DNA of 36,056 bases. Source: an uncultured archaeon (GTDB taxonomy: Archaea; Thermoproteota; Nitrososphaeria_A; Caldarchaeales; Wolframiiraptoraceae). The notes beneath the pieces were generated by a model. It did not search any database and was not told the origin of the DNA. It worked only from the letters and a program-made list of their open reading frames with translations. The position numbers were made by a program, and so were the translations under genes. The stretch lies in NCBI GenBank assembly GCA_938083505.1, contig CALKCF010000005.1, positions 1-36,056 on the forward strand. Direction: 5' to 3'. The first letter of the stretch is position 1. Every line of letters starts with the position of its first letter. Of this stretch, positions 1,207 to 12,032 are shown piece after piece.

Positions 1207-1503
1207 GGGGCGTGCGGCCTGTAGCCCTCCTTCTGTTTTAGGCGGGATTTGTCTAATCGGTGCCCGAGGCCTCGCCGGGGCAGGCTCAAAGGCCTCTTGC
1301 CTTTCCCGCGCGGGCCGCCCGTTCCACCCAATCCCGACACCTCGTCAGCGGCTTATTGCCGCATCAAGCTCATCTGGTATCGGGAGGTCTCGTTTCTGGT
1401 GCGTTGCCAGGGGTCTCCCCCTACACCTCGCGGTGTCGCGCGCCCCTGCTTGGGGGAGGAACTTCCTCGGGAGTTCCCCGAGACCCGCCCGGCCACCCGC
1501 CCC
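1207..1503 (-). ncRNA. rnpB: RNase P RNA (archaeal)
   Basis: This is the catalytic RNA that trims 5' leaders from tRNA precursors. On the minus strand the 5' end GGGGCGGGTGGCC pairs with the 3' end GGCCGCACGCCCC, a 13-position P1 helix with one mismatch. Inside are blocks typical of RNase P RNA: CCCGAGGAAGTTCC near the 5' end (conserved region I), CAGAAACGAGACC in the middle, and AAAACAGAAGGAGGGCTACAG near the 3' end (conserved region V). Length is about 297 nt, normal for archaea. High G+C (visibly above the flanks) fits a structured RNA of a thermophile. Open frames across it on either strand are by-products of that composition. End points come from the P1 helix and could be off by a few nt. 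Confidence 0.88.
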
Positions 1504-2767: not shown

Positions 2768-5897
<3,130 letters not shown>

Positions 5898-9655: not shown

Positions 9656-10921
9656 GTGCCTACCATGGAAATAACTTTTCTGGGCTCTGTAGGCGAGGTT
9701 GGCAAGTCAGCAATACTCATAAAGTCTGACAAAACGAGGATTCTGTTAGACTACGGTATTAAACCAAACGATGAGCCAGAGTTTCCTGCGCATATAGCTC
9801 CTAAGGACCTAGACGCCGTTGTAATTACGCACGCCCATCTGGATCATTCCGGGGCCGCGCCGCTGTTGTATATGGACGAGGGGCCAAAACTCTACTCCAC
9901 GAGCATGTCCCTTAAAACGTGCGAAATACTCCTTGAGGACTTCCTCAGACTGTCCGGTTATTACGTCCCGTACGAGTACTTAGAGGTGGAGTACATGTTT
10001 GGAAGAGCAAAGAGTGTTTACTACAGGGAGCCGATAAGGATTAAAGACGTTGAGATAGAGTTGCTGGATGCCGGCCACATACCGGGAAGCGCTCAGGTCG
10101 TAATAAACGCCGATAAGCGCCTTCTCTTCACAGGAGATATCAACCCTATAAAAACTAGGTTACTGAAAGGTGCCGATATTAGCCAAACTGATGTAGACGC
10201 AGTAATCATAGAGTCCACGTATGCTAAGGAGGCACACGAGAATAGATTAGAACTTGAAAAACAGTTCGTCGAGGAATGCTACAGGGTGGTTGAAGATGGT
10301 GGTATAGTTTTAGTGCCAGCATTCTCAGTAGGCCGCTCACAAGAAATGTTGTGCATCTTAACGGTGCAAAACTTTAAACACATGCTTTCGACTGACGGTA
10401 TGGCCATCAAGATGCTTGACTTATATCTAAAAGAAGGTAAAGAGTTCATCGCAAACTACGATCTGCTAGAAAAAGTTAGAAAAAGGGTCAACATCGTCAG
10501 CGGCAAAAAGGAAAGGAAAAGGGTGCTCGAGCATCCTGGCGTAATAGTTTGTCCAGCCGGTATGCTCAAGGGCGGGCCAGCTGCTTATTACGTTCAACAT
10601 ATAGCTAATGATAAGTCTTCGGCGATATTCTTGGTTAGCTATCAGATACCGGGGACACCAGGGGCTTTGCTGGTTTCGGAGAAGAAATTGATGATAAACG
10701 GTAAGGAAGTGCCAGTTAAGGCCAGGGTTGAGCATTTCCTATTCTCGAGCCATGCTGGTCAGAAGGAACTTCAGGCTTTGCTAAAGTCTTTTAACCCTGG
10801 AACAAAGGTCTTCACGGTTCACGGCGACGGTGATAGTTGCGAGGTCCTTGCCGATTGGGCCAGAAAGGAGTGCTCGTTAGACGCTGTTGCACCATCATTG
10901 AGAATGACTTACAAACTTTAG
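9656..10921 (+). CDS. Archaeal beta-CASP metallo-beta-lactamase nuclease (aCPSF2-like)
   Basis: The product is a ribonuclease of the CPSF73/beta-CASP class, acting in RNA processing or decay. Motifs in order from the GTG start: LGSVGEVGKSAI, the zinc ligands H-x-H-x-D-H at residues 59-64 (THAHLDHSG), DAGHIPGSAQ, LLFTGDINP, the beta-CASP strand IESTYA, VLVPAFSVGRSQEML, VIVCPAGMLKGGPAAYY and FSSHAGQKEL near the C-terminus. At 421 aa it lacks the N-terminal KH domains of aCPSF1, so it belongs to the shorter aCPSF2/RNase J-like archaeal set. Start may be GTG 9656, placed by the TATA box, or ATG 9665, which costs 3 residues. The aCPSF2 subgroup is inferred from length and domain make-up. Confidence 0.9.
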   Translation: MPTMEITFLGSVGEVGKSAILIKSDKTRILLDYGIKPNDEPEFPAHIAPKDLDAVVITHAHLDHSGAAPLLYMDEGPKLYSTSMSLKTCEILLEDFLRLSGYYVPYEYLEVEYMFGRAKSVYYREPIRIKDVEIELLDAGHIPGSAQVVINADKRLLFTGDINPIKTRLLKGADISQTDVDAVIIESTYAKEAHENRLELEKQFVEECYRVVEDGGIVLVPAFSVGRSQEMLCILTVQNFKHMLSTDGMAIKMLDLYLKEGKEFIANYDLLEKVRKRVNIVSGKKERKRVLEHPGVIVCPAGMLKGGPAAYYVQHIANDKSSAIFLVSYQIPGTPGALLVSEKKLMINGKEVPVKARVEHFLFSSHAGQKELQALLKSFNPGTKVFTVHGDGDSCEVLADWARKECSLDAVAPSLRMTYKL

Positions 10922-10960: not shown

Positions 10961-11901
10961 TCAGTTGGACGTGAAATGTACAAGAGTTGGTAAGCGAAGT
11001 TTAGAAACTAATCTGCAGTAACTGCATACGGGGGTTCTTCGAGGATATGCCGCACCTCTCGCATTCTCTTAAAGCTTGTGGTTCAAAATGATTTTCAAGG
11101 AGTGGCAGAAAGCGTTTTACATGAGTCTTAAATAATAGATATTTGAAGTTTAGAATTTCCTCCTCGATCTTTAACAGCAACTTCTTTCTTTTTATCATCC
11201 GTGAACCTCTTACCAGAGGACGTTCATAATCTACGTACTCCATATGTGTGGATAACACGTAGTAAAGGTTTTTCCTGCTCGGTCATCTCTATTAATGGTT
11301 TTATTTTCTTAACGATTTTTGGGTGCATAGTAGGAAGAACTAGTTTATTTCTTACAAGCTCCTCTAGGACTCCGTTAATATAGTGACTAAATAAGACCTC
11401 GACGGTGTCATCAAGATTGTGCCCCGTAGTTACGGTATCTAAATTGTTATCGGGTGCGATTTTGTTTATTAAGTACCTCTTGACGACTCCGCATATCCCG
11501 CATATTCTACGGCCGAGTTTCAGGGTTACAAAATCTTTGAACGAATACTCTTCGATGCTTTTCAAGTCGTATATTATGTGGTCTATTGAATTCTTTTGGC
11601 AAAATCTCTGAACTAACGTTTGACATTTATCAGAATACTCGGATATCCTAAGGTTTAAATGTATTACCATGAAGTTAAGGCTTGGAAATATGTTCAAGAG
11701 ACCTGACCAAGGCCATACTATCCTTTCCTCCAGAAACAGCGACTCCCAAATTTTTGACATCGGCAAACATCCTGTACTTCAATATCGTTATTCTTACTTC
11801 TCATAGTAGTCAACAAAGCAGGAACGGCAAGGATTGCTTTTTATATTATCCAATCGGTAAAGCGGCCTCCCTTCAGCCCCGCATTTACTACATCTGAGCA
11901 T
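10961..11901 (-). pseudogene. TtuA/Ncs6-type tRNA 2-thiolation protein, broken by four frameshifts
   Basis: Read in pieces, the minus strand encodes a full TtuA/Ncs6 (TtcA-superfamily) protein of about 300 aa. From ATG 11901: N-terminal zinc finger CSKCG...NPCRSCF; shift near 11795-11803; PP-loop GVAVSGGKDSMAL; shift near 11683-11697; NFMVIHLNLRISEYSDKCQ, RICGICGVVKR (C-x-x-C) and TTGHNLDDTVEVL; shift at the A5 run 11269-11273; NLYYVLSTHMEYVDYERP, GSRMIKRKKLLLK, and ECERCG; shift at the C5 run 11030-11034; PVCSYCRL. The third Fe-S cysteine expected in a C-P-Y motif reads Arg-Pro-Leu (one T to C change). The family thiolates tRNA uridines. An intact leaderless promoter remains. All identified full-length genes nearby are intact, favouring a young pseudogene over bad sequence, but homopolymer errors are not excluded. 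Confidence 0.85.
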
Positions 11902-11932: not shown

Positions 11933-11944
11933 GAACCTATTTGG

Positions 11945-12032
11945 TGCGGCCGCCGGGATTTGAACCCGGGACCTTGGGGCTTGCCCCCTTATGACGGGGC
12001 CCCCACGTCCTACCAGCCTAGACTACGGCCGC
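11945..12032 (-). tRNA. tRNA-Gly (CCC), with probable 14-nt intron
   Basis: Acceptor GCGGCCG/CGGCCGC, discriminator A, D arm GTCT/GGAC, T arm CCGGG-TTCAAAT-CCCGG, and CCA encoded at 11944-11942. The anticodon stem TGGGG/CCCCA encloses 21 nt instead of 7, so about 14 nt are removed. GCCC just after the 5' stem pairs with GGGC before the 3-nt bulge AAG, which places the cuts at the canonical 37/38 site and gives intron TCATAAGGGGGCAA and mature loop GCCCCGG with anticodon CCC. The acceptor and A73 match archaeal tRNA-Gly. The loop is odd: C at 33 instead of universal U, G at 37. A CAT triplet after T inside the insert could mislead software to Met. Confidence 0.72.

Follow-up and report, generated by a model that had tools for sequence, protein, structure and literature searches.

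A very probable, recently formed ttuA pseudogene in a Candidatus Terraquivivens species

Thiolation of tRNA at the 2-position of residue 54 counts as a hallmark of archaeal thermophiles. By homology, intact TtuA would function as a PP-loop, [4Fe-4S] enzyme that uses ATP to activate the 2-position of tRNA U54 and inserts sulfur there, a modification that would in turn stabilise the T-loop at high temperature. The closest described systems are the TtuA proteins of Pyrococcus horikoshii (PH0300, PDB 3VRH/5MKO) and Thermus thermophilus (PDB 5B4E/5GHA), whose structures are the best matches of a profile of the orthologues considered here (E about 1e-64); in the T. thermophilus protein, residue C222, the equivalent of PH0300 C220, is one of three [4Fe-4S] ligands (PMC9821441). 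The NcsA/Ncs6 proteins, which are tRNA U34 2-thiolases, belong to the same superfamily and have a related fold.

Here we describe a TtuA-type locus on contig C5, which was analysed in its entirety as a window of 36,056 nt (Table 1) and belongs to a 1.154-Mb draft archaeal assembly of 10 contigs that is 98.5% complete. We compared it with five further genomes of the same genus (G001, G002, G003, G004 and G005). As G005 is Candidatus Terraquivivens tengchongensis (contig JALNJK010000001), the source of the contig is a Candidatus Terraquivivens species (Caldarchaeales), within the thermophilic archaeal family Wolframiiraptoraceae (PMC9246946). The initial annotation had read the minus strand as a single TtuA-type gene spread over five segments in shifted frames, and this reading is borne out by three-frame translation between positions 10900 and 11960, by HMM searches and by orthologue alignment. 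The remnant shares the motifs and the domain order of the structurally described TtuA proteins but, unlike them, has a reading frame that is broken four times and an arginine in place of the third [4Fe-4S] cysteine.

Table 1. Features of the ttuA locus and other elements of the contig, numbered along the 36,056-nt window.
Feature	Position	Strand	Description
Probable ttuA pseudogene (TtuA-type tRNA-U54 2-sulfurtransferase)	10961..11900	-	Five segments in shifted frames
Start codon of remnant	11898-11900	-	ATG
Segment 1	11797..11900	-	N-terminal zinc finger, MLRCSKC...CRSC (translation, alignment)
First in-frame stop	11794-11796	-	TAA, just past the -4 deletion
Segment 2	11701..11797	-	PP-loop VSGGKDSMAL; flanked by the -4 and -2 deletions; PF01171, E=0.0018
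Segment 3	11272..11700	-	CGICG (Fe-S cysteines 1 and 2), KRY, GHNLDD; NF049949, E=2.2e-28; same frame as segment 1
A5 run	11269..11273	-	One extra A (+1) relative to three relatives (alignment)
Segment 4	11034..11276	-	Third Fe-S Cys motif CPL replaced by RPL; CERC, the first of the C-terminal zinc pairs, kept; NF049949, E=6.8e-6
C5 run	11030..11034	-	One extra C (+1) relative to three relatives (alignment)
Segment 5	10961..11030	-	Last zinc pair CSYC and C-terminus, to the stop codon
Last stop	10961-10963	-	
tRNA-Gly(CCC)	11942..12032	-	Directly upstream of the remnant; syntenic anchor in congeners
RNase J/CPSF-like metallo-beta-lactamase gene	9656..10921	+	Intact; downstream syntenic anchor
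23S rRNA gene	2797-5869	+	RF02540
Archaeal RNase P RNA	1210-1500	-	Overlaps mechanical ORFs

HMMs assign segments 2 to 4 to the PP-loop/TtuA family, with NF049949 (TtuA, Pyrococcus type) as the best NCBIfam family for segments 3 and 4. The long middle segment scores 99 bits against this model versus 32 bits against NcsA, which sets the remnant apart from the U34 enzymes, and the intact orthologues of the congeners score 220-226 versus 80-91 bits. Unlike Pyrococcus TtuA, these orthologues lie under the curated equivalog cut-off of NF049949 (450 bits), which no member from the Caldarchaeales reaches. The statement that every motif had been kept holds for the PP-loop (SGGKDS), both zinc fingers (CSKC/CRSC and CERC/CSYC, spread across the segments), the C-x-x-C pair of the cluster and GHNLDD, but fails for several family-invariant residues and for the third [4Fe-4S] cysteine, so that two of the three cluster cysteines remain. 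The annotated exchange of this ligand for arginine is real, and the lost residue aligns with PH0300 C220. Judged by its sequence, the locus derives from ttuA yet no longer qualifies as a functional representative of the family.

To call the frame breaks, we aligned the remnant with the intact syntenic orthologues of G001, G002 and G005. The four predicted frameshifts correspond to four frame-changing indels within 940 bp, namely deletions of 4 bases near 11797/11798 and of 2 bases near 11700/11701 and single-base insertions in the A and C homopolymer runs, both of which fall exactly where the initial annotation had placed them; all four are confined to the copy of the source genome. Consequently, the remnant has no continuous open reading frame and its first-frame product would be limited to about 35 amino acids. 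Each of the orthologues nevertheless covers it in tblastn over 93-99% of its length, in order and at a single locus, which excludes a chance assembly of unrelated segments and places them all in one family. Upstream of the remnant lies a TATA-like stretch, CAAATATTTTTATC, which G005 shares and which represents a candidate promoter.

Of the three origins envisaged by the initial annotation, namely gene death, local sequence errors and slippage, very recent death is clearly the best supported, and the locus is very probably a genuine, recently formed ttuA pseudogene. In favour of sequencing or assembly errors in an otherwise working gene are the position of two of the indels in homopolymers, where errors are commonest, and the draft state of the source in 10 contigs. 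Deletions of 4 and 2 bases are, however, untypical of homopolymer errors, and alignment of G002 and G005 proteins to the whole 36-kb contig, which sets the scope of this control, revealed the remnant as the only broken frame among about 30 genes, the remaining multi-frame matches being a few antisense ORFs. Errors would also fail to explain how the surviving codons have changed. At sites invariant in three other species, the remnant differs at 30 of 217 positions compared with 138 of 2382 in 11 neighbour genes of the same genome (Fisher p=3.5e-5), and radical changes, defined by a negative BLOSUM62 score, amount to 14/217 versus 30/2382 (Fisher p=6e-6), a 5-fold excess; the intact orthologues carry 1-3 radical changes each. 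Because TtuA evolves faster than its neighbours in the intact species as well (odds ratios about 1.9-2.3 for all changes), it is the radical rather than the total changes that carry the argument: the surviving codons are under relaxed purifying selection, independently of the indels. Residues invariant across the family are altered at seven positions, or at eight if an E to Q change beside an excluded codon, possibly an alignment artefact, is counted, versus 0-1 per congener, and among them are two glycines (now Arg and Glu), a proline (now Leu), a Met-Pro pair (now Ile-Ser) and the third cluster cysteine (now Arg), a ligand loss that errors likewise leave unexplained. A sequencing error is thus unlikely as the origin of the breaks, and we grant it only a small share of the probability. 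One or both of the +1 homopolymer insertions could still be artefacts in a gene that the two deletions (-4 and -2) and the exchange of Cys for Arg had inactivated beforehand, and ttuA would remain broken if one of them were.

Expression of the gene through programmed or slippage frameshifting might draw on the long A and C runs, which are potentially slippery, and on the persistence of most catalytic motifs. We reject it as exceedingly improbable, since every pass would demand four separate shifts, including ones compensating for the 4- and 2-base deletions, whereas the orthologues are open without any of them, and the product would lack an essential cluster ligand in a protein whose constraint is relaxed; none of our observations requires it. 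An equally slim chance attaches to the retention of a fragment with a different function, such as a truncated protein from the middle segment: the frame 11224-11766 is indeed open over 180 codons, but it would lack the PP-loop, the third Fe-S ligand and both zinc fingers, its start lies out of the family frame, and the surviving codons show the radical-change excess. Returning to the pseudogene, pairwise dN/dS values are low and only slightly raised (0.10-0.11 versus 0.08-0.09), which indicates that most of the divergence predates the loss and that ttuA died recently, late on the branch. Counting against the pseudogene reading are the homopolymer setting of two of the indels and the large number of indels relative to excess substitutions for a pseudogene of such recent origin.

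Comparison of the locus in close relatives reveals intact ttuA frames of 323-348 aa in G001, G002 and G005, flanked in each case by the same two anchors, the RNase J-like gene and tRNA-Gly, and the absence of the gene from G003 and G004. In G003 an MFS-type gene replaces ttuA between the two anchors, and in G004 a similar MFS-type gene adjoins the RNase J-like gene, the tRNA/PAC2 flank being located on a different contig; neither region showed any similarity to TtuA. While these loci retain no detectable remnant, the source contig preserves an intermediate stage. In a tree built from five neighbour proteins, G003 and G004 group together (100% support) and apart from the source genome, and TtuA is widespread in the remainder of the Wolframiiraptoraceae, suggesting that their loss is separate from the decay described here. 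The best reading of these sequence comparisons is therefore that ttuA was lost at least twice in the genus, with G003/G004 and the source genome representing separate events. The interval between the tRNA-Gly and the RNase J-like gene is itself variable in the genus (L035:7718-10762, L037:7766-8761, L057:2067-3260), with a P-type ATPase-like gene in G005, a thioredoxin-reductase-like gene in G001, the MFS-type gene in G003 and no extra gene in G002 or the source contig.

A search of the 98.5% complete source genome with the TtuA profile detected no second TtuA, its matches being the remnant and an intact NcsA-like protein (G000:C2:133517-134401, 130.6 bits). In the Caldarchaeales, the TtuA and NcsA-like classes are cleanly apart in this profile, at about 204 bits or more and about 155 bits or less, respectively. 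With the NcsA-like protein intact and no other TtuA, U34 thiolation is probably retained, and we infer that 2-thio-U54 has been lost in the source species. The same combination of TtuA absence and NcsA retention recurs in G003 and G004, in G016 of the Wolframiiraptoraceae and in others. In the favoured scenario, the four indels and the loss of the cluster ligand have abolished ttuA in the source lineage, and the loss was tolerated as one of several in the order. As for partner enzymes, the available distributions do not track TtuA: PF05958 occurs in the genus only in G001, where it scores above the RlmD cut-off rather than as TrmA, which speaks against the joint disappearance of ttuA and a U54 methyltransferase gene; no member of the Wolframiiraptoraceae has TrmY; and Pus10 is present in all congeners. 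With Pus10 present and TrmY absent, s2U54 can be named only as the presumed modified base in the relatives.

The initial annotation had deemed the loss of a tRNA thiolase in a presumed thermophile notable. TtuA does appear to be lost, but the intact NcsA-like U34 thiolase remains and the loss is recurrent in the order: in a set of 29 Caldarchaeales genomes of 90% completeness or better, intact TtuA is found in 14 and is absent from 15, the source genome included, and 13 of these 15 have reverse gyrase above the cut-off. In the Caldarchaeales, thermophiles have thus commonly lost ttuA, and the present case is a documented recent instance that involves no new mechanism. A move to mesophily was considered as the cause and rejected, as the source genome encodes an intact reverse gyrase (an open frame of 1,065 aa), and its 16S G+C content (62.7% versus 63.6-64.1% in congeners) points to a slight shift at most. 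G003, a 97% complete genome with no reverse gyrase match at E<=1e-40, is the only one in the genus without both ttuA and reverse gyrase and is possibly a less thermophilic species.

We consider the chances evenly balanced that position-54 2-thiolation is undergoing repeated loss in hot-spring Caldarchaeales that still have reverse gyrase. If so, such lineages would either stabilise the tRNA T-loop otherwise or inhabit the lower thermophilic range, and the source contig would show one such loss under way. A passage in PMC6313347 concerns T. thermophilus above 75 C and refers to Pyrodictium tRNA that is stabilised without the modification. The present case also shows that the absence of ttuA from near-complete Caldarchaeales genomes can reflect real loss rather than assembly gaps. 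With a recent natural ttuA knock-out alongside intact and fully lost states, the genus offers a convenient set for testing the need for 2-thio-U54 in thermophily.

Two further observations concern the RNA genes of the source genome. The tRNA-Gly(CCC) gene next to the remnant measures 91 nt; its surplus nucleotides lie within or next to the anticodon arm and may constitute a short intron. The sole 16S rRNA gene found lies on contig C2, away from the 23S gene of the present contig, and the two are thus apparently unlinked.
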